DNA of 64,000 nucleotides from Stichopus chloronotus. Taxonomy: Eukaryota > Echinodermata > Holothuroidea > Aspidochirotida > Stichopodidae. The stretch spans positions 17,067,415-17,131,414 of the forward strand of contig CM037840.1 of assembly GCA_021234535.1 (NCBI GenBank), given 5' to 3'. Within the stretch, counting starts at the first letter, position 1. Every line of letters begins with the position of its first letter. The notes beneath the pieces were generated by a model that made no database searches, was not told the origin of the DNA, and saw only the letters and a list, made by a program, of their open reading frames with translations. Position numbers and translations under genes: made by a program. Positions 7,260 through 64,000 of this stretch are shown here, in pieces.

Positions 7260-7603
7260 TAGTTAGTTCATATTCCACGCACCAAGGTGTATTTAGGTGT
7301 ATTTGGGTGTATCTAATAGAGTACAAATTTCTATTGTTTTTAGTTTAGGTCAAAGGTCATTTGGATCAACAGGGGTCAAATTTTTAAAACCTTGTAAACA
7401 CGATATCTCAAGAAGGAAAGCCTAGACAAATTATCATATTTTTGTTATGTAGATATACGACATTCACTACGAGAACCCTATTTTGGTGGCGGTAAAAAAA
7501 AACAAAAGAACAATTGGGGTCAATGGGGATCAAATTCAACATTGAACATCTTGTTAACATCATATCTCAAGAAGGGAAGCTTTGCCAAATCTCATTTTTA
7601 TTT
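7260..7603. repeat. Family A units, short block
   Basis: About two diverged units of the main repeat: GGTCAAAGGTCATTTGGATC, GTAAACACGATATCTCAAGAAG and then a second partial unit. The block stops at a small palindromic duplication. Confidence 0.8.
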
Positions 7604-9039: not shown

Positions 9040-10650
9040 CCACTTCTTTTTAGGAAAAATCTGTTTTTGGGGTAAACGGTTGTCAAATGGTGAAAACCTT
9101 GTAAACACGATATTAAAGGAAAGGACGTATCGATCAAAGGTCATACTTGTGTATATAGGAGTACCACATTGAGTACAAGATCCCTATTGATTTTGGTGAA
9201 GGTCAAACGTCATTTGAGGTAATTGGGGCAAATTGTGAACATCTTTTAAAGACGATATCTCAAGAAGGGAAGCTTTGACATATCTCGTATTTAGTTCATA
9301 AGTGTACCATATTCAGTGCAAGAATCCTCTTGTTTTTGGCGGAGGTCAAAGGTCATTGAGTTCAACAGGGGTCAAATTGTGGATATCTTCTAAACACAAT
9401 ATCTCAGGAAGGAAATCTTGGACAGATCTCATATTCAGTGTTGGTGTATCTGATAGAGTGCGAAATCTCTATTGATATTGGTGGAGATCAAAGGTTAGTC
9501 GAGGTCAACGAAGGTAAAATTGTAAAAAAAATCACGTCAATACAATATCTCAATAAGGGAAGCTTGGACAGATCTCATAGTTAGTATGTAGGGGTATCTG
9601 ATAGAATATAAGAATCGTTTTTTGTGGAGGTCTTTCAGGTCAATAGTAGTCAAAGTTTGAAAACCTTGTGTGTGTGTATGATGCTGCCTGTAAACACATT
9701 ATCTCAAGAATGGTAACCTGGACTGATCTCATACTTGGTGTGTGTCGGCCATACAAAGTAGATGATCCTATTGTTTTTGATGGAGGTCAAAGGTCATTTG
9801 AGGTCAAAGTGTGAAAATATTGTAAACACATTTTCTCCAGAAGGGTAAATTTGACTGATCTCATACTTAGTGTGTGGGTTGACCATGCTAAGAAGATGAC
9901 CCCGACTGTTTTTGGTGTAAGTCAAAGATCATCTGAGGTCACTAGAGGTCGATCCGTAAAAAACTTTTAAACAAGATATCCCCAGAAGTGTAACCTTGAC
10001 TGATGTCATACTGAGTGTGTGGGTTAGCCATGTTAAGAAGATGATCTTTCTTGATTTTGGTGGCGGTCAACGGTCATTTGAGGTCAATGACCTTTGATCC
10101 CCACCATGAACAAGTTACAAAAACCTTGTAAACACTAAAGAAGGGTAACTGTAACTCATACCTAGCATGTTGATTGTTCGTACTGAGTTCATCTTGGATG
10201 ATCCGTATTATTTTGGTGGAAGTCAAATGTCATTTACAGTCACCAGAGGTCAAAGAGTCAAAATTATGCAAACTATTATCTCAAAAAGAGAAATGGTAAT
10301 GTCTATTGCTCATAGTCAGTAGTTGGCTGAGGTCAAAGGTCATTTGATATCACCACAAGTCAAAATTGTGTAAACATTTTACATAAGTCAAGGAGGATAA
10401 CTGTGAAGGATTTCATGCTTAGCATGTGTATTGCCCATGAATAGATGGTTTCTATCAACTTTTGCACCTATTGTTTTAAGAGAAGGTCAAAGATCATTTT
10501 AGTTCAAAAGCTGGTTACCATTATGTTTCAAGAAGAATTAACTGTAATTGATCTCATACATGTCTTGCGCGTAATTCATGTTTGTTATAATATAAGCATA
10601 CGGCAAAGATTTACCAAGCCTTTGTGGCCTACTGGCTTTTTCAAACAATC
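9040..10650. repeat. Family A tandem array
   Basis: About eleven diverged units of roughly 145 bp, each with TGTAAACAC-ATATCTC, a CTCATACTT-GTGTG segment and GGAGGTCAAAGGTCATTTGA. The perfect AGGTCAAAGGTCA word occurs at about 9,343, 9,786 and 10,329. The array ends near 10,604-10,640 with a right-end motif (GGCAAAGATTTACCAAGCC-TTTGTGGCC) related to the terminal hairpins of other family A blocks. Confidence 0.88.
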
Positions 10651-12119: not shown

Positions 12120-12720
12120 TTCACAATTGTTCAAACTGTTTTCATTTGCATGAAACTTGGACAAAATATTCCATAGGTGGTGGTCTATTTGTGGTGTTTA
12201 CAAGGTTCTGGTCTGAAGTCCCATGTGTGCTGTGGCTCATTTTATGAAATTCTGCCAAATGCTTCTCCTACAAATTCTCTTGTACATTGCTGATTGTTTG
12301 TCACAATAATACTCTATTAGTGATATCGTCAGATTGTTCAGGGATTTTTAGTCAAAGGCTTCATATATGGGCCGTACGTCCCATTTTATGAAACTACGTT
12401 CTCAGTGCAGGTTTTTGCACATGCTATAATGGATTTGTATGTAACTTGGATACAATGTTTCCTGAGTGGTAGGCAAATTTGGGGTATTTAAAACTGCTTG
12501 GTTGAAGTTCCCATGTGGACCATACGGTGCATTTTATGAAATTCTGCAAAATGCTTCTCCTCCTGTAAATTCTCTTGTACAGTGTTGATGGTTTGTCATA
12601 ATGATACTCTGTTTGTGGTCTATCTTAGGGTGTACATGAATTTGTAGTCCATCGTTCTGTGTGAGCCCTATGGCCCATTTTTTGAAATCCTGCAAAAGTT
12701 TTCTCCTGCTTTAAAGGTGT
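12120..12720. repeat. Family B repeat units
   Basis: Copies of a unit with CATTTTATGAAATTCTGC, AAATGCTTCTCCT, TCTCTTGTACA, TTGATGGTTTGTCATAATGA and TACTCTGTT. About three units, partly interrupted. The same text recurs at 22.2-23.3, 31.7-32.0 and 33.7 kb. Confidence 0.85.
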
Positions 12721-16370: not shown

Positions 16371-16373
16371 TTT

Positions 16374-17905
16374 GATCCCTTGCTGAAGACAGAAGGAATC
16401 TATGCAGTGGTGATGTCATGTGTGTGTGTGTGTGTGTATGTGACACTTCTTGTAAACACAATATCTCAAGAAGGATAACCATGACTGATCTCATACTTGG
16501 TGTGTGGGTTGGTCATAAAGTAGATGATCCCTTCTGTTTCTGGTGGAGGTCAAATGTCATTTGAGGTCACCAGAGGTCAAACTGTGAAATCCTTGTAAAC
16601 ACAGTATCTCCAGATGGATAGCTGTGACTGATGTCATACTTAAATGTGTGAGTTGTTCATTTAATTAGATGATCCCTACTGTCTTTGTTGGAGGTCAAAG
16701 GTCATTTGAGGTCACAAAAGGTCAAAGGTCGTTTGAGGTCACAAGAAGTCAAACTGTAAAAAAACGTAAACACAATATTTACAGAAAAGTAACTGTGACT
16801 GATGTCATACTTGGTGTGTGGGTTGATCATACTGAGTAGCTGATTACTATTGTTTTTGGTCGAGGTCAAAGGTCAGTTGAGGCCACGAGAGGTCAAACTG
16901 TAAAAACTTTGTAAACACAGTATCCCTAGAAGGATAACTGTGACTGATGTCATACTTAATGTGTGAGTTGTTCATTATAATTAAATGATCCCTATTGTTT
17001 TTAATGGAGGTCAAAGGTCATTTGAGGTCTCCAGAGGTCAAACTGTTAAAACCTTGTAAACACAATATCTGCAGAAGGGTAACTGTAACTGATGTCATAC
17101 TTAATGCGTTAGTTGTTCATTTAGATTAGATGATCCCTATTGTTTTTGATGGAGGTCAAAGTTCATTTGAGGTCACCAGAGATGAAACTGTAGAAACCTT
17201 AAAAACAGTATCTCCAGAGTGGTAACTGTAACTGATGTCATACTTAGTGTGTTGCTTGGTCATACTAAGTAGATTATCCCTTTTGTTTTTGGTGAGGGGC
17301 AAAGGTCATTTGAGGGCATTAGAGATCAAACTGTAAAAACCTTGTAAACACAATATCTCCAGAAGTGTAACCATGACTGATGTAATACTTGGTATGTCGG
17401 TTGGTAATAATGAGCAGAAGATCTCTATTGTTTCTGGTGGAGGTCAAGGGTCATTTGAGGTCACCAGAGGTCAAACTGTAAGAAAGTTTAAACACAATAT
17501 CTTCAGGAGTCTCACCTTGACTGATTTCATACTTCATGTGTGGCTTGTATAAACTAAGTAGAAGACTCCTTTTGTTTATAGTGGAGGTCCACGCTTGTTT
17601 GAGGTCACCTGAGGTCAAACCTTGCTAACACATTATCTCCAGAAGGGTAATGCTGACTGATGTCATACTTGATGTGTGGGTTGGCCATTCTGTGCAGGTG
17701 ATCCCTATTGCTTTTGGTGGACCTCAAATGTCATTTGAGGGTGCCAAAATAAAGGTCATATTGGGTTAAAGGCTTATTAATATGGTGTTTCAAGAACAAT
17801 AACCTGCAGTTGATCTCATACTTGTTATGTGGATAATTGATGTTTGTTATAATATAACCATGTGGCAATGAATCAAAAAGCCTTTTGGCTTTCTGGTTGT
17901 CATAT
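16374..17905. repeat. Family A array with both ends preserved
   Basis: This block has the full layout: a left-end motif (CCTTGCTGAAGACAGAAGGAATC, in two pieces CCTTGCTGAAGACAG and AAGGAATC), a (TG)n tract at about 16,418-16,440, then about nine tandem units, then the right-end hairpin AAAGCC-TTTT-GGCTTT at 17,877-17,892. The GTAAACA word recurs at 16,911, 17,056 and 17,344, spaced 145 and 288 bp, so the unit is 144-145 bp. Most units carry GGAGGTCAAAGGTCA, TTTGAGGTCA and CCAGAGGTCA in order. Confidence 0.92.
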
Positions 17906-20631: not shown

Positions 20632-21785
20632 ACCTTTTCCATTCCTTGCCAACGGCATGGAATCTATGCGATGGTGATGTGTATACAAGTGTTTGTGTGT
20701 GTGATGCTTTGATTGTTTACATAATATCTCAAGAAGGGTAACCGTTGCTCATTTCATACTTGATGTGCTGGTTGTTCATACTGTGTAGATGATCACTATT
20801 GTTTTTGGTGGAGTTCAACGGTCATTTGAGGTCACTGGAGTTCAAACTGAAAACCTTGTTTACACGATATCTCAAGAAGGATAGTCTTGAGTGTCATACT
20901 TTATTTGTTTTTTGATCATACTGAGTAGATGATTCCTGTTGTTTTTGGTGGAGGTCAAAGGTCATTTGAGGTCACCATAGGTCAAATTGTGAAAACCTTG
21001 TTTACACGATATCTCCTTGTGGGTAACCTTTGCTGATCTCATACTTCGCATTTTGGTTGTTCATACTGCGTAGATGATCCTATTCTTTTTGGTGGAGATC
21101 AAAGGTATTTTAGGCCACTGGAGGTTAAACTGAAAACTTGTTTACATGATATCTCAAAAACAGTAATGTTGACTGAGATCATACTTGGTGTGTGGGTTGG
21201 TCATATTGAGTAAATGATCTCAATTAATTTTGGTGGAAGTCAAAAGTCATTTGAGGTCACTGAAGGTCAAACAAAAAACCTTGTTTACATGATATCTCAA
21301 GATTGGTAACTTCGACTGATCTCATACTTAATCATACTGTGTAAATGATTCCTGTTGTTGTTTTTGGAGGTCAATGGTCACTTGAGGCCACCAGCGGTTG
21401 CCTTAGGTAAGGCCAGAGATCAAAGTATGGGTAACCTTGACTGATCCTCTACTTGGTGTAGAGATGATCCCTGTTGTTTTTGGTATAGGTCAGATGTCAT
21501 TTTTGGTCATGAGAGCTCAAACTGTGAAAACGTTGTTTACATGATATCCCTGAGAATTCTTTTGGGAATGAGTTTGTAGAGAAAGAGAGAGATGTACATT
21601 TTCAAGAAATTGTGTCATTTTCCGTGGAGTTCAAAGATCACTTGACATCAGCAGACACCATTGTTAGAAATCAAGTTGTGCACATGTGGGGCTTTGCAGT
21701 GTTTGATTCAACATTTGTATTGCATGTGGGTTATCCTTCATGAAGATGGGCAAGGAATCACAAAGTCTTTAGACTTTCTCATCGC
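20632..21785. repeat. Family A array with both ends preserved (intron)
   Basis: The left hairpin ATTCCTTGCC-AAC-GGCATGGAAT lies at 20,641-20,663 (nine pairs, one mismatch). A short TG tract and about six units follow. The right hairpin AAAGTC-TTTA-GACTTT is at 21,762-21,777, after GGCAAGGAATCAC. The unit at 20,952-20,984 has four perfect AGGTCA half-sites in line. Confidence 0.9.
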
Positions 21786-22010
21786 TCTATAGGGGCTAGG
21801 ATAACATATTGTACTCACTTGGCTAGTGGAGCCACATATTGTACTTTACACCCATTGGAGAATGGTTACCATAGAAACACTCAAAAGTTGCTGTGCAGCG
21901 ACACCCCATACCTCATTCTAAAGTGACCATGGGTACAGTTGTTCCCTTTTTAGTGGTGTAAATAAAAGTGTATTCATGCTAATGTGTGTGTGCATGTGTG
22001 TATGTATGTC
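21780..22010. repeat. Leader module with X-box-like motif, copy 1
   Basis: A segment of about 230 bp that shares its order of words with 24,775-25,010: GGGGCTAGGATAACATATTG, CACTTGGCTAGTGGAGC, ACCATGGGTACAG and GGTGTAAATAAAA. It leads into a TG-rich tract and family A units. It contains GTTACCATAGAAAC at 21,865-21,878. Confidence 0.85.
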
Positions 22011-22215
22011 TGTGATGCCCTACCTTGTAAACACTGTATCTCAAGAAGGGAAGCTTGGACAGATCTCATATTTGGTGTGTAGGTGAACCACTTTGAGTAA
22101 AGAGTCCTATTGTTTTTGTTGGAGGTCAAGAGTCATTTGAGGTCAACAGGTGTCAAAAAACATTGTAAAAACAATATTTCAAGAAGAAAAGTTTTGGCAG
22201 ATCTCGTATGTGGTA
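22011..22215. repeat. Family A units running into family B
   Basis: One full and one broken unit (GTAAACACTGTATCTCAAGA; GATCTCGTATGTGGTATG). The second is cut at about 22,213, where family B text begins in mid-unit, so one family inserted into or recombined with the other. Confidence 0.75.
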
Positions 22216-23305
22216 TGTAGGTGAACCCCATTTCATGAAATTCTGCAAAATATCTCTCCTCCTATGGATTCTCCTGTATAATGTTGATGGTTTCTCATAA
22301 TTGCATTAGTGGTGCCTTCAGTTTGTTCAGGAATTTTTGGTCCAAGTTCCCATGTAGGCCCTCTGCTCTGTTTTGTGAAATTCTGCATAATGCTTCCCCT
22401 GCAGACCTGTTGTGCAATGTTGATGGTTTGTCATAATGATACTCCATCAGAGGTACTTTCCAGGGTGTACAGGGAGTGCGGATCCTAGGTCACATGTGGA
22501 CCTTTAAGCCCATTTTATGAAAGTCTGCAAAATGCTTCTCCAACAGGTTCTCTTGTACAATGTTGATGGTTTGTTATGACAATAATTCATTTGGGGTACC
22601 TTCTGTGTGTTCAGGAATTTTAGGCCTAAAGCCCAAGAAGGATGCTGGGGTCCCATTTGTTGAAAAGATGCAAAATGATTAAGTTGTCCTCTAGTTAGAG
22701 TAAGTCAGAGTGGAAAGCCTGTCCCAGTGATGGTTGGTTGATGCTCTGTTTGTGGAAATTAGCCCAGCATCACATGTAGGTCCTATTGCCCATGGTATGA
22801 AATGTTGCAAAATGTTTCCTCTACAAATTCTTTTGTACATTTTAATGGTCCGTCATAATGATACTATGCTAGTGATATGTTCAGGGCATACAGGAATTTG
22901 AATCTGTGATCCCATGTGAGCCCTGTGGCCCCTTTTAAAATTCTGCAGACTGAGGTTCTTTCTGTAGATTCTCTAGTACAATGTTAATGATTTGTCATAA
23001 TAATACTCTGTTAGTGGTTCTTTTTCAGGGTGTTCAGGAATTTGCCCCTGAGACCTCAAGTCAACCCTAGGGTCCATCTTGTGAAATATTGCAAAAGCTC
23101 AACACTCCCCTCCAAGTAATGTTAAACAGAGTTGACAGCCTGTCTTGGTAATGCTTCGGTAGTAATCTATGTTTTTTGGAAGTTTTGGTCGAAGGTTCCA
23201 CTTCGGTGCTGTGTCCCCCTACAAATCCTATTGTACAATGTTGATGGTTTGTCATAATATTACTATGTCAGTCCGTGGTAGCTACAGGGTGTTCAGTAAT
23301 TTTGG
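22216..23305. repeat. Family B tandem array, about 140-bp unit
   Basis: Around seven units. The word GTTTGTCATAAT or close variants starts at 22,290, 22,426, 22,569, 22,848 and 22,989, giving steps of 136, 143, 279 (two units) and 141 bp. Each unit also has TTCTGCAAAATG and TTCAGGAATTT. Confidence 0.9.
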
Positions 23306-23329: not shown

Positions 23330-24330
23330 AAGTTCAGACACTTAGTTGAAGGTGTTAGTTTTGAGGTCAGTAGAGGTCATAGTTTGAAAAAGTTGTAAAA
23401 ATGGTATCTCAGTAAGGGAAAGTTGCTGGAAGTACAAGTACAAAATTGATTTGTAGATTGTCCATTGTAAGTAGATAGTCCCTATTATTTTTCATGGAGG
23501 TCAAAGGCATTTGAGGTCACAAGAGGTTAAGGTCTGAAGATCATAGATGTATTAAGATAGATATCTCAACAATTGAATGTTGATGGAACTTCACACTTCA
23601 AAGGTCATTTGAGGTCACTGGGGTTAAAGTACTATTAAAATCAATGAAAGAACTTGTCTCTGCAACTGAATTTTGCTGGATCTTCAAGCTGTTAACAGTG
23701 GTAGACCTTGATGAGCAGATCAGCTCTGTGATTTCTTATGGAGGTCAAAGGTCTCTTTGAGGTTAATAGAGATTGTAGTTTGTAAAACTTGTAGACATGG
23801 TATTCCACAAAGAGTAAGATGCTTGAACTTCAAAATTGGTATGTATTGTACTTTGCTTTCTATTAAGGTTGTCAAAGAATCTTGAAGTCATTTGACTTCT
23901 GGCTTATTTTTTTGGGGGGGGGGGGCATGGAGGGGGTTAATGTCTACATGGTCACTATCTGTGATATTTGTATAGTGCCCTTCTTGTGTTTGTCTGTGCA
24001 TAACTGCACTCCTTAATTGTACAAGTATACTTGCTAACTTTAAAATTAGCCAGTGGAATAACTCTATTATTTTGGGTTGAAATCAAAGATCATTTGAAGT
24101 TAGTTGTGTTAAGCTGTAAAAATTGTTTTAATGTTACATCTGAAAAATACCAGTTTGGACCGTCCCCTTACTGTATGTATGAAGTTGATTAAACCTATGG
24201 AGTGCAAGAACCTTTTTTGTTTGTCAAGGAAGTTAATGGTCATTAAGTTAGCTAGGCCAAAATGTGAACAGCTTGTAAATACATTATCTGAAAAGGTCAA
24301 GTTTCGAACTAAACTACTTGTATGTGATAT
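23330..24330. repeat. Diverged family A array (intron)
   Basis: Units of the GCTGGAACTTCAAA variant, as in 38.2, 42.7 and 49.2 kb. A G homopolymer of about ten bases lies near 23,915-23,925. The right-end-like text TCAAAGAATCTTGAAGTCATTT is at about 23,873. The array decays toward 24,330. Confidence 0.75.
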
Positions 24331-24764: not shown

Positions 24765-25014
24765 ATGTGGTTATCTCATTGCCCTGTAGGGGCTAAGATG
24801 AGATATTGTAGTCACTTGGCTAGTGGAGCTATATATTGCACTGTGCATCCATGGGAGAACGGTTGCCATGGAAACGCTTGGGAGTGGATGAGTAACTACA
24901 CCCCAGGGGTACCCATTGGCAGAGTGACCATGGGTACAGGTGGGTCCTGTTGGGTGGTATAAATGAAAACGTGTCTGTGGCAATGTGTGCACGTGTGCGT
25001 GTGTGTATGTTTGT
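24765..25014. repeat. Leader module with RFX X-box, copy 2
   Basis: The second copy of the module at 21,780. It contains GTTGCCATGGAAAC at 24,862-24,875, an almost symmetrical match to the RFX X-box. It ends in GGTGGTATAAATGAAAAC and a TG-rich stretch that leads into family A units. Confidence 0.87.
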
Positions 25015-25620
25015 GATGCCCTACATTGTAAACACGATATCTCAAGAACGGAAGCTTGGACAGATCTCATATGTGGTAGGTAGGTGTACCACATTAATTA
25101 GAAGAATCGTAAGGTTTTTGGTAGAGGTCAACGGTCATTTGGGGTCAACAGAGGTCAAATTGTGAAAACCTTGTAAACATGATATCTCAAGAAGTGCAGC
25201 TTTGACAGATCTCATATCTGGTGTGTAGGTGTACCATGTTGAGTAGAGGAATCCTATTTCCTTTTTTTTTTGGTGGCTGTCAAAGATCTTCTGGGGGCAA
25301 CATGGGTCAACGTCTGAAAACCTTGTAAAGATGATATCTCAAGAAGCGAAGCTTGGACAAATCTCATATTTGGTATGTAGGTGTACCACATTGAGTTGAA
25401 GAACCCTATTATTTTGGTGGGTGTCAAAGGTCTTTTGGGGACAACAGTTGTCAAATTGTGAAAACCTTGTAAACACAATATTTCAAGAAGGGAATCTTGG
25501 ACAAATGTCACATTTGCTGCATTGGGTTACAACATTGAGTGCAATGCCTCTATTGATTCTATTACAGTATTTACGGAGCTGTTTTGATAGTTGTAAGTGC
25601 AAAATTCCCAAAAGATAAGC
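25015..25620. repeat. Family A units (intron)
   Basis: Four units with GTAAACACGATATCTCAAGAA or close variants at about 25,028, 25,175, 25,327 and 25,470, steps of about 145-150 bp. Confidence 0.88.
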
Positions 25621-37900: not shown

Positions 37901-38150
37901 CCCAGTCGCTACTGGGGTGAGTTGGTCTCTGAGAAGGAGGATAACGAACTACTCCGGGGTACTGATATTTCTGTTGAGGCTTTCGAGCAAGCTGCCATAG
38001 TCCTACGATGGACTCTTGGCTAAGCGCCAGATCCGGCTCTCTCTGAACAGAGCTGCCAACTTTGTGGTTTACGTTGAATGCAGCCTCTACGGCTCCACTG
38101 GCATCCATTCTCGTCTCAAAACCGCCCTGGTTTAAACTGAACAACCCTGA
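34763..38150. mobile_element. Degenerate retroelement-like block (intron)
   Basis: The block is GC-richer than its surroundings and full of short coding-like pieces in changing frames on the + strand. Examples are an acidic stretch DVPSNPALGLEVSVVEEAVE near 34,979, LLELLQALTIADLKTMVFAS near 35,857, and a frame of 89 codons at 37,193-37,462. No reverse transcriptase motif, recombinase or terminal repeat was seen. Family A resumes at about 38,185, immediately after it. A decayed DIRS/Ngaro-like gag region is my best guess, with low certainty; other decayed elements or a processed pseudogene are possible. Confidence 0.3.
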
Positions 38151-38184
38151 TTCTCGAGGATGCCGAGTATGGTTAGCGCTTCCA

Positions 38185-38900
38185 ATCAGGAAGTAAAATA
38201 TGAAAACCTATTGAGGGAGATATCTCAGCAGTGGAATGTTTTTGGAACTTCAACCTTTTACCATTGGTAGCACATAATGAGTAGATAATGTCCGGCATTT
38301 TGTATGGAGGTCAAAGTTCATGCAGGGTCAGTAGAGGACAGTTTGAAAACCTTGTAAACATGGTATCTCAAGAACGGAAAGGTGCTTGAACTTCAAAGTT
38401 GGTGTGCTGATAGTCCATTGTGAGTAGATGATCCCTATTGTTTTTTGTGGTAGTCAAAGGTCATTTGAGGTCACTAAAGCTGAAAGTATGAAAACCAGTC
38501 AAAGGGAGGTATCTTAGCAATGGAATGTTACTGGAACTTCAAAGTATTATCATTGGTAGCACTTAATAAGTAGAAAATATCTGTAATTTTTATAGAGGTC
38601 AAAGGTCATGTGAGGTCAATAGAAGACATAGTTCTAAAAGCTTGTAAACACAGTATCTTATGGAGGGAAGGGTGCTTGAACTTCAGTGGTATTGTGTTGG
38701 TAGTCTACTGTAGGTAGATGACCTGTGTCGATTTTCATGGAGGTTAAAGGTCATTTGAGGTCATCACAGGTTAAAGTATGAAAACATGTTGAGAATGATG
38801 TTTCAGCAACTGAAATGTTACTAGCACTTCAGAATGTCAAAACTGGTAGCACTTGATGAGTAGATGATATCTGTTATTTGAATTACCCCATGATACACTA
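38185..38900. repeat. Family A array (intron)
   Basis: About five units of the alternating type, with TATCTCAGCA-TGGAATGTT-CTGGAACTTCAA units next to GTAAACATGGTATCTCAAGAAC units. A perfect AGGTCAAAGGTCA lies at about 38,597. Confidence 0.88.
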
Positions 38901-39723: not shown

Positions 39724-39900
39724 ATGTTAACTCCCTGACTCTCTACTTTGGTGTTAAGTTTTATCTAGAGGATCCTTGTCAACTGAAAGAAGAGATTACA
39801 CGCTACCAGTTTTTCCTTCAACTCAAGCAGGACTTGCTTGTGGGCAGAATACCATGCAACAACAAAATGGCAGCTGTTTTAGCCAGTTTATGTGTGCAAT
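39724..39900 (+). CDS. FERM gene exon: F1-F2 junction and F2 lobe
   Basis: This 177-bp exon starts after TTTCACAG and ends before GTAAGTG. It enters in phase 1, completing an Asn codon, and leaves one base of a Ser codon. It encodes [10 protein letters not shown] (last F1 strand), [20 protein letters not shown] and [11 protein letters not shown], then [10 protein letters not shown], the acyl-CoA-binding-protein-like F2 helices. The spacing R-Y-x-x-F-L-Q-x-K-x-D-x-x-x-G-R-x-x-C is diagnostic of FERM. This exon gives the best similarity to EPB41L4A. Confidence 0.96.
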
Positions 39901-39904
39901 GTAA

Positions 39905-42255
39905 GTGTAGCATTATATGAACCTGAAAGGATTTAGATTCCAAACTAATTTTTGGGAGTGATCCTTGTAACAATGTGAATGAGAAAGGTTGAATCCTTTT
40001 GTGCAAAGGTCAAACAGGATGTATGCAGTTAACCCTTTTGATAAAGGGAAAAGTGCTTGTACTTCAAACTCTGTAGGCAGAGGTTAGATGAGTCTCTTTA
40101 GTAATGTGTGCCAGGGTTGTCGATTAAGCCGATATTCGTTTATTGCTTGCACGGAAAACTCATATCAATGATTAATTTCTATAGCAAAATTTCTGGGATA
40201 TCTTCTGAGCTATGCCAATGATAATGGAACTATTAACTACTGTAAGAGATTCTTACAAGCCTCCAGTTTTGGTTTGAAATTAGAAAATCCTTTTTTTCCC
40301 CTGTAGGTCCATTGCATTGTAATCTCCCTCCTCTTCCTTGCTGACTTCATTTAGGAATCATCACATAACTGTGTGAATAATGGGTCTGTCACTTTTCTGG
40401 GTGATTTTTTCACCCATCATGATGATTGATTTGAATTATACAAATAAATTATCATGAATTAATCTTTTCAATCTTTGGTCCTTTAACTTCTATGCTCCAG
40501 CTTAAGATTATGTCAACCAATTTATATTTTACATTTCTTATGTTGAAATTGACAACATTATTGCCAATTCAGATATGTTGAGATGTAGAATACATATTGT
40601 GTGAGAATTTTCTTTGAAATTGCAAGTTGTTGAGCTATATGTTCCTTACTGCATAGCTTAATGTAACAGGTCATTTTTCGTTCACGTTGAATACTACTTA
40701 ATTGTTAAAGCCACTCCTATGTCATTGAAAACTGTCACGCATGTAGAAAAGTCAAATGAAAACTTCACTTGACTAGTTTCATCTCAAGGTTTTGCCCTAG
40801 AAAATGATTTTTTCATTGGAGTTTATTGTCAGTACCCACAGCTATCCCAAACCTGGAACAAAACTGTGGCAGGCATCTTGATTGGAATAATGTATTTTGT
40901 GAACGCTTTTTGACTGGTAGGAAAACAAAAGTTGAAAACCTTCAGTTCTGGTACATACATGGATTAGTATCAAGTTGGGTTTAATGCAAAAATCAAGCAA
41001 AGAAAATCTCTATTTTGGTCTTTGTGTTACATTAAAATAAAAAATTTAGAAACATGTAGTTTGGTTATGAAATGCATTTGCACATCAACTGTTTTTTTGC
41101 ATTCTAAAAGACAAAATGTTGATTTTAAGTGGCCACACAAATGAGAGTAAATATCAACTTAATTTCTTCCTACAACATGCTACATTTCATCTATACCTCT
41201 AAATTGAAAAAAAATTGCCCAGTGTCTCAAATTTTGTAAACAAAGTTTGTGTCAGAAGTAGAATACAACAGGAAGAATAATAACAATGTGCAGATGTTGC
41301 AGTTCCAAGAGACATATAGTTATATATATATGCGTAAAATATTAACCAGAAAGCTTGTAAAGCTATATTCTCTTAACAAAATCAGTTGTTATAAAAAAAG
41401 ATGCTAAAAAAGGACAGTGTATTTAATATTCCTGTTAGAAAGCTGTTCATGTTCAGTAATAATCCTAGGCAAAGTTGCAACGTTCTTTGTAAATACCTTC
41501 TGAAAGCACTCATTGTTACCTTACATTCCATAAGATGTGAGTTTTGTAAAGATACAAAATCAATTTCAGTATTTGTTATCTTTTTTCCCTGTGAATGCAA
41601 AGGAATATAATCTACCTGTTTGAGCAAAAGAACGTATTATAACAACCTTAATAAATGAGACAAAAAATAAAACCTTAACAATCATCTTCTTCGTCACACG
41701 TGAGGTTTTCTGAGCGATAATCCAGTGTTATGGGTTGATAAACCTGAATTATGAAATGATAAACCTGGATTCCTTATTCATTTGATGTTAAGTTTGCCAT
41801 GGTACACTTTACTCTTGGGTACATGGTATGAAATTAAACAGAAGAAGTAAAACCATTTGCATTCACCCTTCTTTAGCATGTACTGTACCCTCTATTTTGC
41901 AGCGTGTGCTCCCTCACCTCATATAACCTATGCAATTACGGAAGGGCGATGGCCAGATACACACACATGGTCAATACGGTAATGCATATGTTATATGAGG
42001 TGAGGATGTTATTAGTGAAGTCTTAAACCAAGGAGTTTTGGGGAGTTTGAAGCAAGTGGTGGATTTAGCCTGTGAAAAGACAAGCGTTTCCTAGGTTGAT
42101 GTTGAAGGGTATATTATATTTAACACAAATTGTAAGAACCTTTTATCACTATATTTAACAGTTTGATCTTTTTACCAAACAGGTTTTATCGTCGTTCATA
42201 CATTTACAATTTCCAGAAGACTGTCTGCTATTAGAGTTTGCATTGAATTATTTGT
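39905..42255. other. Intron, nothing recognised
   Basis: AT-rich. CTCACCTCATATAACCTATGC at 41,910-41,930 and GTTATATGAGGTGAGG at 41,988-42,003 form a short inverted pair about 60 bp apart. No gene or known repeat. Confidence 0.45.
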
Positions 42256-42389: not shown

Positions 42390-42594
42390 GTACTGTACTT
42401 AAGTATATTTAATTATAATTACATGGTTATTATTTGTTTTTTTTTTTTTCATGATGATGTGAATTCCCAGTGTGTTGTGTTCATATATGCACATGCAGTT
42501 ATGTGACTCAATACAGTACAGCTCAAGTTTAACTCCCATAGCTGTGTTATTATGCTTGTTTATATTCCTTTAAATTTGTTGATATGTTTTTGAT

Positions 42595-43975
42595 TTCTTG
42601 CTGAAGGCAGGTAAGGAATCTATGCGATGGTGATGGCGTGTGTGTGCATGTATGTGTGTGTGTGTGATGCCTTGGCTTGTAAATATGATATCTCAAGAAG
42701 GGAAAGTTGTGTGAACTTCAATGTTGGCGTGTAGGTAATCCATAGAGGTAGATGGTCCCAATTCTTTTTCAGGTAGGTCAAAGTCATTTGAGGTCACTAG
42801 TGGGGATAGTCTGAAAACCTATCAAGGAGGATATCTCAGCAACTGAAAGTTGCTGGAACTTCAAACTGAAACCATTGGTAGCACTTGATGAGTAGGTGAT
42901 CTCTGTCAAGTTCTGATGAGGTTAAAGGTCACATGAGGTCAGTAGAGGACATACCTTGAAATCTTGTAAATACGGTATTTCAATGGGGAAAGTTACCTAA
43001 ACTTCAAAGTAGGAATGTAGGTAGTCCATTGTGAGTAGACTGTCCGTATTCTTTTTTGGGGAGGTCAAAGGTCATTTGAGGTCACCAGTGGGGATAGTCT
43101 GAAAACCTATCAAGGAGGATATCTCAGCTACTGAAAGTTGCTGGAACTTCAAACTGAATCCATTGGTAGCACTTGATGAATAGATGATCTCTGTCAAGTT
43201 CTGATGAGGTCAAAGGTCACATGAGGTCAGTAGAGGACATAGCTTGAAAATCTTGTAAACACGGTATTTCAATGGGGAAAGTTACCTAAACTTCAAAGTA
43301 GGAATGTAGGTAGTCCATTGTGAGTAGACTGTCCGTATTCTTTTTTGGGGAGGTCAAAGGTCATTTGAGGTCACCAAAGGTTAAAGTCTGAAATCCTATT
43401 AATTAGGATATCTCAGCAAGTCATAAAGTTGCTAGAACTTCAAACATAGAGTATTGATAGCATTTGATAAGTAGATGATCTCTGTCAAGTTTTGGTGAGG
43501 TCAAAGGTCACATGATGTCAGTAGCGGACATAGCTTGAAAACCTTGTAAACACGTTATCTCAGTGAAGGAAAGTCGCTTGAACTTCAAAACTGGTAACTT
43601 TGGTTGCTCTTGATGAGTAAACAGTCTCTGTCAGATTTTTGGGAAGTGAAGGGTCACACAAGTTCACTAGAGGTCATAGTGTAGAAACATTGTAAACATT
43701 GTATCTCCAGTAGGAAAAGTTGCTGGAACTTAAAACTTAGTGTATATTTTGGCCATTGTGAGTAGATGATCCCTATTGTTTTTCATGGAGGTCAAAGGTC
43801 ATATGAGGTCACCAGCAGTGGAGTTTGAAGACCTTGTAAGGAAGATACATTTCAGTGACTGTTTTGTTGTAGATATGATATCTCAAGGAGGGTAAGGTGA
43901 GTGAACTTGAAATTTGTATGTTGGTTATCTTTTCTTCATAAATATTGGCAAAGAATCACATAGTCCTTTGACGTT
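42595..43975. repeat. Family A array with 288-bp higher-order repeat (intron)
   Basis: The left end (CTTGCTGAAGGCAGGTAAGG, ATCTATGCGATGGTGATG) is followed by a TG tract and about nine units. The segment 42,777-43,080 is repeated nearly base for base about 288 bp downstream (TGGGGATAGTCTGAAAACC at 42,801 and 43,089). The right-end motif (GGCAAAGAATCACATAGTCC) is at about 43,947. Five perfect AGGTCAAAGGTCA words occur between 43,060 and 43,800. Confidence 0.93.
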
Positions 43976-44745
43976 TTGGTCACACTTTTTGGTTTTGATG
44001 ATAATTGTAACCTTTGTAATTATGCAGACGTGTATGTGTATGCGCGTGTGTGCGTGTATGCGTGTGTGTGGGTGCCCTTGTTTTCGGGTGGGATCGAGGA
44101 CCGAAGCAATAGATTTTAGGTCCTCTGTAGAAAATTCAATAGATTTCTCCGGTCCTCTCAAGATTAATAATAGAGAGTCTATTGTTAAGGTTAGGGTTGA
44201 GGAAGAAAAAACAAAAGCAAGCACAATGAGGTTCTCGAATGAATGGAAAACAAAGTTGTGTGTGTATGTATGTGTATATGTATGTTTGTGACGCCCTACT
44301 TTTTAAACATGATATCTCAAGAAGGGAAGCTTGGACTAATCTTATATTTGGAATGTAGGTGAAACACATTGAGTCAAAGAACCCTGTTGCTTTTGATGGA
44401 GGTCAAAGGTCATTTGAGGTCAACATGGGTCAAATTGTGAAAATCTTGTAAGCACAATATCCCAAAGAAAGAAATCTTGGACAAATGTCTTATTTGGTGC
44501 TTGGTGTACCTCATTGAGTTCAACACCCCTATTGATTCTGGTGGAGGTCAAAGGTCACTTGAGGTCAACAGGACTCAAATTGTGAAAACATTGTTAACAC
44601 AATATCTCAAGAAGGGAAGCTTGGACAGATGTCATATGTAGTGTGTAGATGTATTTTATATAGAGTACAACAACGCTACAGTTCTAATGGAGGTCAACAG
44701 CCACTTGAGGTCAACAAGGGTTAAACTAAGAGAACATTGTAAATA
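43976..44745. repeat. TG-rich leader and family A units (intron)
   Basis: A leader with GATAATTGTAACCTTTGTAA and TATGCAGACGTG, then GT-rich runs (44,030-44,070; 44,255-44,290), then three units with AGGTCAAAGGTCA at about 44,399 and 44,545. About 190 bp of other sequence (44,090-44,250) is placed between the two TG-rich runs. Confidence 0.85.
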
Positions 44746-46439: not shown

Positions 46440-46990
46440 TTTGGTTCCTTGCCGAAGGCAGAAGGAATCTATGCGATGTAGATGTGTGTGTGTATGTATG
46501 TGCGTGTGTGATGCCTGCTTGTAAACACAATATCTCAAGAAGCGTAACTCTGAGTGATCGTATACTTGGCATGTAGATTGCCCATATTGAGTAGATGATC
46601 CCTATTGTTTTTGGTGGAGGTCAAAGGTCATTTGGGGTCACCAGAGGTCAAAAGGTAAGTACCTTGAAAATTGCTTGTAAACACGATATCTCCAGAACGA
46701 TAAATGTGAGAGATCTCATAGTTATCATGTGGATTGCCCATATCGAGTAGATGATCCTTATTTTTTTGGCCGAAGTGAAAGGTCATTTGGGGTCATGGGA
46801 GGTCAAAATGTGAAAAACTGGAATACACAGTATTTAAAGAACAGTCCTTCCAGTGAATTTTATACTTGTAATGTAGAATCCTCTTGTTGATTTGATGGTT
46901 CCTATGCATTTTTGTAGAGATGAAAGTTAGTTTGGGGTTATTTGACATCAAATTGTTCAAAATGAAAGTAGGTACTATTGGCGTAATTAA
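46440..46990. repeat. Family A block with left hairpin (intron)
   Basis: The left hairpin TTCCTTGCC-GAA-GGCAGAAGGAA is at 46,445-46,467. A TG tract and about three units follow, the first with AGGTCAAAGGTCATTTGGGG and CACCAGAGGTCA. Confidence 0.9.
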
Positions 46991-49065: not shown

Positions 49066-49069
49066 TGAC

Positions 49070-50245
49070 TCCTTGTTGAAGGCAGGGTAGGAATCTATGT
49101 GGTCATGATGGCATGTGTGTGCATATGTGTGTGTGTGTGCATATGTGATGCTTTGGCTTGTTAACATGATATCTCAAGAAGGGAATGGTGCCTTTACTTA
49201 AAGTTTGTGTGCAGGTAGTGCAACTGAATGTTGCTGAAACTTCATACTTATCAGATTTGTAGCCCTTGATGAAAAGAAGATTTCTGTCATTTTTATAGCG
49301 ATCAAAGGTCATGTGAGGTCAATAGAGGTCATAGTTTAAAAACCTTGTGAATGCAATAAATGTCAATTTCAAAGGTCATTTGAGGTCATTAGAGCTTAAA
49401 GTATTAAAACTTATTTAGGGATTTATCGTAGGAACTAGATGTCGCTGGAACTTCATACTTGTCACAGTGGTAGCCCTCGATGAGTAGATAATTGCTGTAA
49501 TTTTTTGTAGAGGTCAAAGTTCAATAGAGGTCAATAGAGGTTATAGTCTGAAAATCTATGAAGGAAAATATCTTTGCAACTGAATGTTGTCAAAACTTCA
49601 AACAGTTAACATAGTTAAGTCGTAATAAGTGGATGATCTCTTTCGTATTTTGTGGAGGTCAAATATCATGTGAGGTCAATAGAGGTCATAGCTTGAAACC
49701 TTTTAAGTACAATATGTAAGGGAAAGTTGCTGTGCATGCAAACTTGACTTCTAGGATGTCTATTGTGAGTTGATGATCCTTATTATTTTTCACGAAGGTC
49801 AAAGGTCATTAGAGGTCACCAGAGGATAAAGTCTGAAAATCTATCAACGTTAGGTATCTCAGCAGTGGAATGTTGTTGGACCTTCAAATGTACTGTGTTG
49901 GTAGTCCATTGTAAGTAAATGATCCCTAGTACAATTTTCATGGAGATCGAAGTTCATTTGAGGTTACTAGAGATTGAAGTATGAAAAAGTAGGGAACCTA
50001 CGGAATCTCTGCCACCAAATGTTGCTGGATCTGTAAGCTGTTAACATTGATAGACCTTGATGAGCAGATGAGCTCTGTCATTTTTTATGGAGGTCAAAGG
50101 TCATTTTAAAGTCACTCTAGATAATAGTCTGTAAACTTGTGGACATTGTATCCCACAAAGAGTAAGGTGTTAGAACTTCAAAATTGGTGTGTATTGTCCT
50201 TTGTTTTCTATCAATTTTGGCAAGGTATCTCAAAGTCATTCAACT
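49070..50245. repeat. Family A array (intron)
   Basis: The left end is CTCCTTGTTGAAGGCAGGG then TAGGAATCTATGTGG, followed by a TG tract and about seven diverged units. Perfect AGGTCAAAGGTCA words occur at about 49,796 and 50,092. The right-end-like text GGCAAGGTATCTCAAAGTC is at about 50,218. Confidence 0.88.
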
Positions 50246-51309
50246 TACGGTTTTATCAGGAGTCAGTGAAGGAAAATGCAACTCATGAATGATATGGTCG
50301 TGTACTGTAGGATTTGTAAACTTTCATCTGCACTAAGTTTCATGTTATCATTTGGTATCATCAAATTTGGCCTCCAAACGGATTGAAAGATTGTCAAATG
50401 TGCCACTGCTTGTGTGTTTCAAGTGACCCTAAAAGGAGTAAAGGAATAAAGGAGTTACAAACATGTTATTTCAAGCATTTGAAAATTTAGTGTAGGGAAC
50501 TAAACATCTCAAATTCTCTTTACAGTTGATAAGATCTGCCTGTATATCTGCCCATGTATCTGCCTGTATATGTTAAGATAGTGTGTGACATGTAGTTAAG
50601 AAGCCATCTCCTTTAGAATCAGGTGAAAGACCATCTTAGCTTTACATGTCAAATTGTGTAATTTTGTACACATGATGTCTCACTAGGGATGACTGACCAT
50701 ACAGGTACAGTATGTTCCATTGTGTAAGCTTCTTTTAAGTTGTGTAGACACTGTTTAGACTCTAGATGGAAAGCTTAGTCTGATATCATTTGTGACTTTT
50801 GATGGACCACTTTGTTTTTAAGAATGCTACTGTTTTTGGTTTAGTTCAAAATTCATTTTTGAGGTTCTAATACAGAAAAGATTGGAACATGAAGCTATTG
50901 TACTAGTGATGCCTGGCCATTTGAGGTCAAAATAGTTGAATGTCTGAAAATTTTTAGATGAAAGTCATGGATAAAGCAGCTGCTTTAGACAAATAACATT
51001 TGGGCTTTTTATGCTGGTATGTGTTCTTGTTTAAAAGCTTAAAGATTATTTAAAGATTGTATACTTAACATTCTTAAAGGAAAAGTAAAGAAAACATTGT
51101 TTTTATCTAAGATTTGCACTTATTTAGATAAAGTTTATTAGCACTCTGGGAATAGCAGCATATCTGTGGAGAGAAATAGGTCTTATTTTGGAGCAGTTTG
51201 GAGTGAAATTACTAGCATGTGCCATGTGGTGTGCACCACTGCTGTATTCAGATATATGTAATAAGTTAACAATAACCATTTTTACCACATGTAATGGTTT
51301 CCTTTACAG
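50246..51309. other. Intron, nothing recognised
   Basis: AT-rich. A short duplication of ATCTGCCTGTATAT near 50,535-50,570 is the only pattern seen. Confidence 0.4.
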
Positions 51310-51486
51310 AGGCATGAGCCCCATAAAAGCAGAAACTAAGTTTCTTGAAAAAGTCCAGCGGTTAGAAATGTATGGTGTAGATCTTCACATGGTGACTGGA
51401 CAAGATGGTAAGGTGTATTACCTTGGTCTTACTCCCACTGGCATCAGCATTTATCAAAACAAGACAAGGATTGCTCACTATTTCTG
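51310..51486 (+). CDS. FERM gene exon: end of F2 and start of F3
   Basis: This 177-bp exon lies between CCTTTACAG and GTAAGAAC. It completes the Arg codon and encodes GMSPIKAETKFLEKVQRLEM, YGVDLHMVTGQDGKVYYLGL and TPTGISIYQNKTRIAHYF, then two bases (TG) of an expected Trp codon. MYGVDLH and LGLTPTGI mark the F2-F3 linker and first F3 (PTB/PH-like) strands. The next exon should begin with G and encode about PK-(I/V)-x-K. No such exon was seen in the 12.5 kb that follow, so a large intron is likely. Confidence 0.95.
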
Positions 51487-51654
51487 GTAAGAACAGAACT
51501 ATTCCAGTGTTTTTACTTCTACTGTCTGCTAGTGAGTGCCAATCTAGCATTGCAAGTTTCCTTGTTTTTACTGCATATAATTTTAAACAGATCATAGTAT
51601 TTTTCTCTATTATGCCTGATGAAAAATAGCCACATACAGACTTTGCCTTCTTAG

Positions 51655-52615
51655 TTTCGATGGTAATCGTAACTTTGTAATCATGCATACGTGGGTGTGA
51701 GTGCGTGTGTATGTGTGTGTATGTTTGTGACGCTCTACCTTGTTAACACAGTAGCTCAAGAGGGGAAGCTTTGACCAGTCTGATATTTATTTTTTTAGGT
51801 GTACCACATTGAATGAAAGAACCATATTGTTTTTGGTGGAGGTCAAAAGTCATTTGGGGTCAACAGGGGTCAAAATTTGATAACCTTGTAAACACAATAT
51901 CTCAAGGAAGGAAATTTTGACAGATCTCTTACTTAGTATGTAGGTGTACCATATTGAGTAGAAGGACCCTACTATTTTTGGTGTCAACAGGGGTCAAATT
52001 GTGAAAACCTTGTAAACACAATACTTCAAGTAAGGAAGCTTCAACAGTTTCACGTTTAGTATATAGGTCTACCCCATTGAGTAGAAGAACTCCTTTGTTT
52101 TTGTGGAGGTGAAAGGTCATTTGGGGTCAACAGGGGTCACAATGTGAAAAACTTGTAAACATGATATCTCATGAAGGGAAACTTGGACAGATCTCATATT
52201 AAGTATGTAGGTGTGCCAAATTGATTAGAAGAACCTTACAGTTTATATGAAAACATTGTAAACACAATATCTCAAGAAGGGAAGCTTGAACAGATCTCCT
52301 ACTTGCTGTATTTGGTATGTGGCTGTACCACCTTGAGAAGAACCGTTATTTTTTGGTGGAAGTCAAAAGTTCATCTGGGGTCAGCCTGTGAAAACCTTGT
52401 AAACAGGATATCTCAAGAAGGGATAGTTCTCACATTTATTGTGTAGGTGTACCACATTGAGCAGAAGGACTCTATAGTTTTTGGTGGAGGTCAAAGGTCA
52501 TGTGGATTCAAAACTGTTAAAATTGTGACAACCCAGTAAACATGAAATTTCAAGGAGGAAAGCTTGGAACTACAATCCCATATGTTATGTATTTTTGTAT
52601 CCCTTTGCAAAGAAG
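51655..52615. repeat. Family A array (downstream of last exon)
   Basis: The leader GGTAATCGTAACTTTGTAAT and TGCATACGTG is related to that at 43,995. A GT-rich run and about six units with GTAAACACAATATCTCAAG follow. A perfect AGGTCAAAGGTCA lies at about 52,488. Confidence 0.88.
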
Positions 52616-59009: not shown

Positions 59010-60245
59010 AAGCCATAACCTTTATAATCATGTGGCAGTGTGTGTGTGTGTGTGTCTGCATTGTGAAAACAATGTAGACACAATATCTCAAGGAGGTAAG
59101 CTTGGTCAGATTTCATATTTGCCATGTAGTTGTGACACATCAAGTACTAGAACCCTATTGCTTTTGGTAGAAGTCAAAGGTCATTTGGGGTCAACAGGGG
59201 TTAAATTGTAAAACGCTTGTAAACATGATATCTCAAGAAAGGAAGTTTGAACAAATGTCGTCTTTAGTATGTCAGTGTACCACACTGAGTGCAAGATCTC
59301 TACTGATTTTGGTGGAGGTTGAAGGTCATTTGAGGACAACAGGGTTCAGATTGTGAAAAAATTGTAAACACAATATCTCAAGAAGGGAAGCTTGGACAGA
59401 TTTCATATTTAGTGGGTAGTTGTGACACATCAAGTACAAAAACCCTATCACTTTTGGTAGAGGTCAAAGGTCATTTGGGGTCAACAGGGGTTAAATTGTA
59501 AAACGCTTGTAAACATGATATCTCAAGAAAGGAAGCTTGGACAAATGTGGTCTTTAGTATGTCAGTGTACCACACTGAGTGCAACATCTCTACTGATTTT
59601 GGTGGAGGTTGAAGGTCATTTGAGGACAACAGGGTTCAGATTGTGAAAAAATTATAAACACAATATCTCAAGAAGGGAAGCTTGAACAGATTTCATATTT
59701 AGTGGGTAGTTGTGACACATCAAGTACAAAAACCCTATCACTTTTGGTAGAGGTCAAAGGTTATTTGGGGTCAACAAGGGTCAAATTGTAAAAACCTTGT
59801 AGACACAACATCTCAAAAAGGGAAGCTTGGACAAATGTCATATGTGGTATGTCAGTGTACCACACTGAGTGCAAGATCCCAATTGATTTTGGTGGAGGTT
59901 GAAGGTTATTTGAGGTCAACAGGGTTCAAAATGTGAGAACCTTGTAGACACCACATCTCAAGAAGGGAAGCTTGGCTAAATTGCATATATGGTATGTCAG
60001 TGTACCACACTGACTGGAAGATCCCTATTGATTTTGGTGGAAGTTGAAGGTCATTTGGGGTCAACAGGGGTTAGATTGTGGAAACCTCGTAAGCACAACA
60101 TCTCAAGACGGGGAGCTTGGACAAATGTCATATATGGTATGCAGGTGTATCTTATAGAGTGCAAGAAGCCTTTTGAGTTTAATAAAGATCAAAGGACATT
60201 TGAAGTCAACAGGGCCACATTATGGAATTCTCTGTAAACATCATA
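59010..60245. repeat. Family A array with 290-bp higher-order repeat
   Basis: A TG tract at 59,037-59,055 is followed by about eight units. The word TTAAATTGTAAAACGCTTGT occurs at 59,201 and 59,491, and text over the whole 290-bp interval is almost identical between the two, so two adjacent units were duplicated together recently. In many units here the DR1 is altered (GTTGAAGGTCA). Confidence 0.93.
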
Positions 60246-61001
60246 TCTGGTTGGAGTGTACCCTCTTGCATGCTATCAAGAAAAAACTAAATTGTGCAAG
60301 GAAGAAGGACAATGAAATTTCCATCACCATTTCAGCACAGAAGAATCTTTTGATATGTTTACCACCAAACACAATCTAGAATTTTCGCAAAAGACTGCTC
60401 TAAGCTTTTATTCCTTTGTGACGCACGGCATGGAAAGTCAGCTCTTGGGACAGGCTGATGGTACCATCTTATTATAAACCTCATGACTTTACTCACATTA
60501 GTTGTGATATCTTTAAGATATGTCTTAAAGAAAGAGCCTGCCTTAATATACTTCAGAGGGATACCTTCAGCTCACTGCTGAGTTAGATTTGTGACCCTGA
60601 AAGGCAACTGGTTTGAGCATGATATGTTGAAGTGACTTAGTTATTTTTGTACTGTGTTTTTACAACACAACTGACAAAGACATAACAATGGCTCACATAA
60701 TTGTAGTAGTTTTGCTTTGTTTCTTTTTGCTTAGAATTATATCTACAGCAGTACCACAAGGTGAAGACTCCTGGTACATCAATGTTAATGTGCACAACCT
60801 GTATACATTAATTGAAGATAGAGCACATGGCAAAGAAGGTTGTGATATTGCAGTAGAGAAACTTAAAATATGAAAACATAAACATTCAGTTCATTGATGA
60901 ACAACATACCTTGGGAAGACCCCATAACAATATAAAACACGTTAATAAATTTAAGGACAAAAACCAAGTGAGGTAGTAAATGTAAGTCTCTATTATTGTA
61001 A
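60246..61001. other. No gene recognised
   Basis: Contains a 61-codon frame (60,688-60,870) that starts with a hydrophobic stretch. It may be the upstream part of the decayed coding region that follows, but no homology supports it. Confidence 0.3.
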
Positions 61002-63789: not shown

Positions 63790-64000
63790 TTTTTCCTAGT
63801 GTCAACATAGGAACCTATGCAGTCAGGTTGCATATGTATGTGTGTGTGTGTATGTGATGCATAAGAGTGCGAGGTATGTTGCATGATAACTCAACTGCCA
63901 ATTGTTCAAATTTTTTTCAGACTTGGTGTGTTTATGTGTAGCATTGAGTAGATGTGCCCTATTGTTGTTGATGGAGGTCAAAGGTCATTTGAGATTACTA
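63790..64000. repeat. Family A block, cut by window end
   Basis: A weak left end (AGGAACCTATGCAGTCAGG), a TG tract (63,836-63,855), then the first unit ending in GGAGGTCAAAGGTCATTTGA at about 63,968. The array continues past the window. Confidence 0.8.

Follow-up and report, generated by a model that had tools for sequence, protein, structure and literature searches.

AGGTCA direct-repeat composites in 264 kb of a sea cucumber genome lie in tandem cores of an element family filed as non-autonomous Helentrons

Introduction

Tandem units of about 145 bp, each carrying AGGTCA half-sites in the spacings of nuclear-receptor response elements, recur through a stretch of 64,000 nucleotides of sea cucumber DNA (C12:17067415-17131414, hereafter the window) from a genome of 718,950,351 bases in 267 contigs, raising the question of whether the half-sites are conserved more strongly than other parts of the unit and, if so, what keeps them. 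The original prediction described a DR1-DR4-DR4 composite within the interval 16550-17760, explained its repetition by descent from one unit, and left the conservation of the half-sites open.

In the human genome, 108,582 DR2 sites have been counted, 90% of them in Alu elements and some bound by RAR (available text of PMC1785376), and HNF4 sites are likewise described in Alu (available text of PMC3252374). In the oyster Crassostrea gigas, elements named Cg_HINE are described as non-autonomous Helentrons with satellite-like central repeats (available text of PMC7492417). Within the literature searched, PMC9301316 alone, as far as its available text goes, brings together helitron, nuclear receptor, response element and tandem repeat; a rolling-circle element with tandem DR1/DR4 receptor-like sites was not found in that literature, nor was the 23-mer block described below, which does not prove that either is absent from print.

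Results

Perfect direct repeats and the repeat family that holds them

The perfect DR1 word, AGGTCANAGGTCA, occurs 22 times in the window, exclusively on the + strand, against a mean of 0.03 in 100 dinucleotide shuffles, bearing out the predicted count of at least twenty and a chance expectation far below one. The perfect DR4 word, AGGTCANNNNAGGTCA, occurs 26 times (shuffle mean 0.01). The four-half-site composite was recovered at 35 places with at most three mismatches and not once in the shuffles, two of the 35 being perfect; seven composites lie in or overlap 16550-17760, including one perfect copy (16692). The order DR1-DR4-DR4 is therefore kept by the units as had been described, mostly with at least one changed base. 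The unit length agrees with the TRF period of 145, and the figure of sixteen blocks roughly fits the units, which self-comparison of the window merges into 17 blocks, and not the perfect DR1 words, which occupy 12 of the 17.

Across the 719 Mb of the genome, 38,855 perfect DR1 words were counted (19,594 forward and 19,261 reverse, or about 54 per Mb), compared with 152 matches of the reversed control pattern (84 forward and 68 reverse). In the 264 kb formed by the window and 100 kb on each side, the units hold all 44 perfect DR1 words and 61 of the 62 perfect DR4 words, and among the other spacings from 0 to 8 there is one DR0, one DR2 and nothing else. AGGTCA direct repeats at spacings 1 and 4 exceed chance in the window, in the 264 kb and in the genome. 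Extrapolating from the 264-kb stretch, we infer that the perfect DR1 words of the genome come mostly from this family. The placement of the feature in and around one gene does not hold, given a word so abundant genome-wide and arrays that, as described next, appear to be the cores of a mobile element.

Heads, cores and tails

A unit HMM with the whole cluster masked detected 88 units on the + strand of the window and none on the - strand (E<1e-3), while the unmasked model detected 97 and none, respectively. Self-comparison of the window showed that several blocks have flanks as well as units in common, with left ends running CCTTGCYGAAGGCAG..AGGAATCTATGCGATGGTGATG into a GT-rich run, and right ends, in several blocks, reading GGCAAAGAATC..AAAGCCTTTTGGCTTT. 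End profiles (nhmmer) seeded with five heads and six tails of the window, and scanned against the window with its two 100-kb flanks, returned, at E<=0.05, 22 heads and 21 tails, five and six of them being the seeds themselves and one tail match (E 0.046) being the subTIR of a head in reverse.

Intact heads follow the order T-run, GATTCCTTGCC, GAA, GGCAG, AAGGAATC, TATGCGATGGTGATGTC and (GT)n, with a GT-rich microsatellite separating heads from central repeats, and intact tails the order TATAACCATGT, GGCAAGGAATC, AC, AAAGCC, TTTT, GGCTTT and CTGGTT. Reverse complementarity is exact between the consensus 11-bp subTIRs of head, GATTCCTTGCC, and tail, GGCAAGGAATC, and also in two single elements, at C12:16973149 and 17141569; it is mismatched in other copies, including the element spanning 16550-17760. 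The head contains an inverted repeat, GATTCCTTGCC-GAA-GGCAGAAGGAATC, whose stem folds (z -3.33). Better-preserved tails carry a palindrome, AAAGCC-TTTT-GGCTTT, behind the 3' subTIR, with a hairpin that folds no more strongly than shuffled sequence (z -1.09).

Complete arrays, comprising head, core and tail, number 12 in the 264 kb (nine on + and three on -, one of them with a gap in its core), four of which lie in the window (at 16448, 20713, 42676 and 49157) and eight in its flanks. The 17 blocks of the window comprise four with both ends, four with one end, four with a second head type that likewise carries a GT run (the 22022, 25023, 44299 and 51737 arrays) and may mark a sister element, and five with neither a modelled end nor a clear head of the second type. 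The interval 16550-17760 takes up the greater part of the core of a single element extending from a head at about 16373 to a tail at about 17898 (Table 1). An intact element, at positions 154-1105 or so of locus L020, measures about 950 bp and contains five DR clusters between exactly complementary subTIRs. Insertion sites were checked on the seven of 22 heads and the seven tails that passed a strict pattern: the last four bases before these heads are T at frequencies of 0.86, 0.86, 0.86 and 1.0, compared with 0.317 overall, two of the seven heads lacking a run of at least three T and three of the seven tails lacking a T after them.

Table 1. Features of the window, in window coordinates; element parts are named under the filing as HINE
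Feature	Position	Strand	Basis
HINE 5' head: 5' subTIR (here GATCCCTTGCT), inverted repeat, GGAATCTATGCAGTGG, start of (GT)n	16373..16427	+	nhmmer head E 9.3e-17, also seed
(GT)n microsatellite, head to first core unit	16420..16442	+	read from sequence
Central tandem array, ~145-bp units with DR1-DR4-DR4; includes 16550..17760	16448..17819	+	TRF period 145, masked-HMM units
Perfect four-half-site composite, sole one inside 16550..17760	16692..16724	+	composite scan
HINE 3' tail: 3' subTIR (here GGCAATGAATC), palindrome AAAGCCTTTTGGCTTT, CTGGTT	17845..17898	+	nhmmer tail E 6.9e-15, also seed
Core units, HINE family; head/tail not found	7299..7595	+	unit HMM, end models
Core array, 11 units; tail 10583-10637; head not found	9066..10557	+	unit HMM, end models
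HINE head preceding 20713 array	20641..20684	+	head model
Core array; tail 21730-21780	20713..21550	+	masked-HMM units, tail model
Core units, second head type	22022..22205	+	21777-22227 vs 24774-25235, 77% identical (self-comparison)
Core units; tail 23852-23904; head not found	23373..23817	+	masked-HMM units, end models
Core array, second head type (common to 22022 units)	25023..25560	+	masked-HMM units, sequence
Core array, diverged subfamily; head/adjacent tail not found	38148..38815	+	TRF, masked-HMM units, end models
Host exon, FERM_M positions 2-46; strand as arrays	39771..39905 = C12:17107185-17107319	+	PF00373 profile search, E 1.7e-7
HINE head	42591..42647	+	head model E 3.3e-16
Core array, 5 perfect DR1 words; tail 43931-43981	42676..43895	+	masked-HMM units, tail model
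Core array, second head type by eye	44299..44745	+	masked-HMM units, sequence
HINE head	46443..46493	+	head model E 1.4e-15
Core units; tail not found	46518..46844	+	masked-HMM units, end models
HINE head	49066..49122	+	head model E 1.3e-13
Core array, diverged subfamily; tail 50200-50253	49157..50165	+	masked-HMM units, tail model
Host exon, FERM_M end / FERM_C start, band-4.1-like	51308..51490	+	Pfam: FERM_M above cut-off, FERM_C below
Core array, second head type by eye	51737..52568	+	masked-HMM units, sequence
Core array, 8-9 units, behind GT run; matching head/tail not found	59054..60248	+	TRF, masked-HMM units, end models
Partial head + first core unit, runs beyond window end	63803..63984	+	masked-HMM units, head model

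A plain satellite or minisatellite, with no mobile element involved and with common flanks arising by local duplication, would also account for tandem arrays and for long flanks in common such as 21777-22227 and 24774-25235. This explanation is very improbable in our judgement, as the same complementary-subTIR ends bound 12 separate arrays on both strands over 264 kb, with outer flanks that are unrelated by eye and junctions that are mostly T-rich.

Filing among non-autonomous Helentrons

On the architecture it shares with described HINEs, we place the element among them, as a family whose microsatellite is GT, because the features of its head, core and tail match the descriptions of Cg_HINE (PMC7492417) and of HINE/DINE-1 (PMC4067079) in the available texts. 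As in Cg_HINE, the left flank consists of a subTIR, its complementary inverted repeat and a microsatellite, followed by central tandem repeats, a right flank with a 3' subTIR and a palindrome, and T-rich insertion sites (likeness by description; PMC7492417). Its microsatellite is the dinucleotide GT, whereas that of the oyster elements is mostly of four nucleotides, and its unit carries an AGGTCA composite, which goes unmentioned for Cg_HINE in the available text (PMC7492417). With DINE-1, HINE and Helentrons in general it shares subTIRs, an inverted repeat nested with the 5' subTIR, a 3' stem loop and T boundaries, and with some DINE-1/HINE members the combination of central repeats and microsatellite (available text of PMC4067079). 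HINEs are described as having an autonomous partner with Rep, helicase and endonuclease (available text of PMC4067079), for which the sea cucumber family has candidates only.

The Helitron_like_N domain (PF14214) has 43 matches in the genome, some of them fragments of one gene. Helitron-like replicases with long frames were found at C12:16834847 (L047, 1321 residues) and C6:334694 (L048, 727 residues), and both are candidate autonomous-element genes. Six replicase loci, each of only about 3.4-3.6 kb, contained neither a head nor a tail of the HINE. Besides, bivalve pearl elements carry a microsatellite adjoining a tandem core between conserved ends, and the sea cucumber element resembles them, by description, in its microsatellite beside a tandem core and its conserved ends.

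Taking anatomy and conservation (below) together, we put a probability of roughly 0.78 on the reading that the arrays are HINE cores, spread by a rolling-circle mechanism, in which a 23-bp block is kept by element lineages and single copies are near-neutral. The unit anatomy and the descent from one ancestral unit were judged correctly from the window, the mobile-element context of HINE/Helentron cores having been missed.

Conservation of the half-sites within the unit

With the cluster masked and units aligned on their flanks, no excess was found at the half-sites (half-sites 0.776, spacers 0.728, flanks 0.753; p 0.42; 72 of 88 units), and their information content lay below that of the flanks (0.96 vs 1.03). 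This test was rejected as a verdict, because selecting and aligning units by the letters of the flanks, with the cluster hidden, favours the flanks, and two kinds of test replaced it, one masking every block in turn and one using an unmasked model. Among blind 33-column blocks at 14 offsets, the cluster scored 0.779 and 0.783 and the adjoining upstream block 0.772, the remaining eleven offsets, some of which overlap the cluster, ranging from 0.618 to 0.751. The unit also holds a forkhead-like word, TGTAAACA, and CRE-like words; the blocks containing these had blind scores of 0.618-0.723, below the cluster.

In the unmasked model, half-sites of the window scored 0.848, spacers 0.772 and flanks 0.746 (p 0.002; 78 of 97 units), with the observed mean reached in 145 circular shifts by the true phase only, and by three of 145 in information content; when one unit per block was drawn, half-sites exceeded flanks in 0.998 of 500 draws. 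Per-site rates from IQ-TREE on 73 units averaged 0.826 at half-sites and 1.033 elsewhere (p 0.0014, shift rank 4/137), the first three half-sites standing at 0.751 and the fourth at 1.05. Outside the window, 78 full units gave 0.867 at half-sites and 0.781 at flanks (p 0.0012, shift rank 3/138), and a looser rule admitting 88 units gave p 0.002 and shift rank 5. All 151 units together yielded 0.861 against 0.762 for the rest (p=3e-4, shift rank 1/138). The half-sites thus exceed the rest of the unit in conservation within the window, in the outside set and by per-site rates, the flank-aligned test being the one without an excess.

The most conserved 13-column window begins exactly at DR1 (offset 0), and the most conserved 23-column window is exactly DR1-TTTG-third half-site, the block AGGTCAAAGGTCATTTGAGGTCA, while the most conserved 33-column window begins 10 columns upstream of DR1. 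Within the cluster, half-sites exceeded spacers with p of only 0.08 or 0.14 in two tests.

These boundaries bear on the possibility that the block is conserved mechanically, as a recombination or template-switch site of the unit or as a contact of the Helentron replicase, and is homogenised or constrained contiguously. Conservation of the spacers A (0.97) and TTTG (0.84-0.90) equals that of the half-sites, so that constraint tracks a contiguous 23 bp, and a T-rich stretch just upstream of the cluster and TATCTC elsewhere in the unit are likewise well kept. The fourth half-site and the CCAG/AACA spacer before it are conserved less than the adjoining 23-bp block, however, placing the boundary at a half-site edge. 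We regard this mechanical explanation as possible, at somewhat less than even odds.

Receptor-specific signs in the cluster were mixed. That the edges of the block coincide with those of half-sites speaks for receptors, and the equal conservation of the spacers A and TTTG speaks against them. The spacing is not protected from indels: deletions in the cluster, at 0.035 per site against 0.025, are no rarer there, and insertions stand at 0.0025 against 0.0038 (rank 19 of 97 windows). Intact DR1 halves occur together at 1.19 times expectation, without excess over the flank-word mean of 1.39. The receptor half-site consensus RGKTCA allows A1->G and G3->T (available text of PMC1785376). At position 1 of the first three half-sites, A->G makes up 0.71 of 75 changes, compared with 0.50 of 963 at flank A columns, a difference that carries no significance figure; at position 3, G->T makes up 0.32 of 59 changes vs 0.27 of 951 and is not clearly enriched. 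Receptor binding at the DR1/DR4-like words is therefore treated here as putative.

Close and distant copies

If source elements keep the block and inserted copies drift, the ratio of half-site to flank mismatches should approach 1 between close pairs and fall between distant ones. For pairs less than 10% apart the ratio was 0.87 (CI 0.59-1.28), followed in successive bins by 0.81 (0.57-1.14), 0.76 (0.59-0.90) and 0.69, and by 0.60-0.65 for distant pairs (0.60 at 45-55% apart). In the window alone, the closest bin stood at 1.15 and nearest pairs at 0.90 (CI 0.79-1.02). Constraint on the source lineages of the element fits these ratios better than host selection on single copies, the intervals of the close bins being wide.

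Host selection, keeping half-sites in single copies as receptor-used enhancers of the resident gene, is the meaning implied by the original prediction. It would agree with conservation maxima placed exactly on DR1 and on the block from DR1 through the third half-site, and with the A->G preference at position 1, which fits RGKTCA. Yet close copies show less of the effect (closest-bin ratios of 1.15 and 0.87), the RGKTCA-allowed change at position 3 lacks a clear enrichment, the cluster has no shortage of deletions, the two DR1 halves accompany each other no more often than flank words do, and the sheer number of perfect words speaks against selection on most of them. We hold host selection to be improbable.

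Orientation and neighbouring host genes

Units in the 264 kb are unevenly distributed between strands, with 178 on + and 38 on -. From C12:17052464 to 17199458 (147 kb), all blocks lie on + except one single unit; from C12:17200700 to 17228972, all five blocks lie on -; and to the left of C12:17052464 block strands are mixed. The + run includes the two + exons of a FERM-domain gene, one of which (51308..51490) matches band 4.1-like protein 3 in the PDB (E 1.9e-10), and the - run includes a 905-residue ZNF592-like frame on -. This pattern, which involves two genes only, may reasonably be read as a preference of the arrays for the sense strand of host genes. Outside repeats, T-A skew flips sign within the - run, and G-C skew follows no clear pattern. 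Among 16 FERM_M loci of about 3 kb each, units occur in only two, L036 (a locus within the window) and L032 (two short hits).

On contig C1, orientation was analysed with 54 listed DR1 words, after dropping 46 beyond 1.08 Mb that were only on + and at about half the density, an apparent listing artefact. Among the matches listed, same orientation was commoner than chance at 1.5-10 kb (0.80 of 15 pairs, p 0.02), showed no excess at 10-30 kb (0.42), fell below chance at 30-100 kb (0.36) and lay slightly above it at 100-300 kb (0.57, p 0.011), and a runs test on the same listed matches was not significant (p 0.11).

Discussion

Under the preferred reading, the non-autonomous HINE would move by rolling-circle transposition using the enzyme of a Helentron located elsewhere in the genome, the block would be kept because lineages retaining it left more copies, and single inserted copies would decay close to neutrally. 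What the element gains is a matter of conjecture: the benefit may come from a bound host factor, perhaps an RXR/HNF4/COUP-TF-type nuclear receptor, which might open chromatin or mark replication where the element copies itself. Some of the genomic DR1 words may, in turn, be used by host receptors. In its full form, the proposal would have the transposon keep a 23-bp DR1+DR4 composite for its own life cycle, recruiting a host receptor to its core where DNA is open or replicating for copying, and thereby wiring up to about 39,000 DR1 words into the genome; we consider this rather unlikely as a whole, and offer it as speculation.

The element can be compared with Alu (available texts of PMC1785376 and PMC3252374). 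In each case, a non-autonomous mobile element spreads consensus direct-repeat sites of receptor type genome-wide. Unlike Alu, the sea cucumber carrier would be a rolling-circle DNA element and not a SINE, its sites are DR1/DR4 and not DR2, and each insertion brings tandem copies; some Alu sites are bound (available texts of PMC1785376 and PMC3252374), those of the sea cucumber being putative. Alu-type seeding of receptor sites would thus extend to rolling-circle elements and to DR1/DR4, as putative sites. Besides, block conservation that peaks between distant units and is weak among close copies offers a way of separating element-level from host-level selection. On a practical level, scans of this genome for RXR/HNF4-type motifs may mostly pick up this element, to which every perfect DR1 word (44 of 44) of the 264 kb belongs.

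Other repeats and reading frames

A coding explanation of the arrays was rejected, the 145-bp period being no multiple of 3, and the window contained neither a tRNA nor any Rfam family at gathering score. Exact unit words were found neither in viral contigs nor in bacterial or archaeal genome contigs. Three proteins from ENA contigs, among eight candidates, contain the repeat-derived reading frame, and two of the three also have TH-rich runs, as expected from (GT)n read backwards; P0001 and P0002 (ENA contigs of 7,440 and 11,157 bp) are probably spurious, being translations of a related repeat plus a microsatellite run, and P0001 had no relative in viral contigs.

A 434-residue open frame, transposon-protein-like by eye, runs from window positions 1-271 (-) to C12:17066384, crossing the left end of the window, and its in-window part had no Pfam match. 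In the right flank, an ISXO2-like transposase domain (PF12762, E 1.2e-22) lies at L024:5399-6304 (-). Further dispersed repeats, lying outside the units, occupy window positions 12144-12715, 22224-23303, 31631-32019 and 33711-33840 and are mostly 68-86% identical from place to place, and another tandem array, at 1895-2988, has a period of 106 bp with about 9.7 copies, as well as one of about 53 bp.
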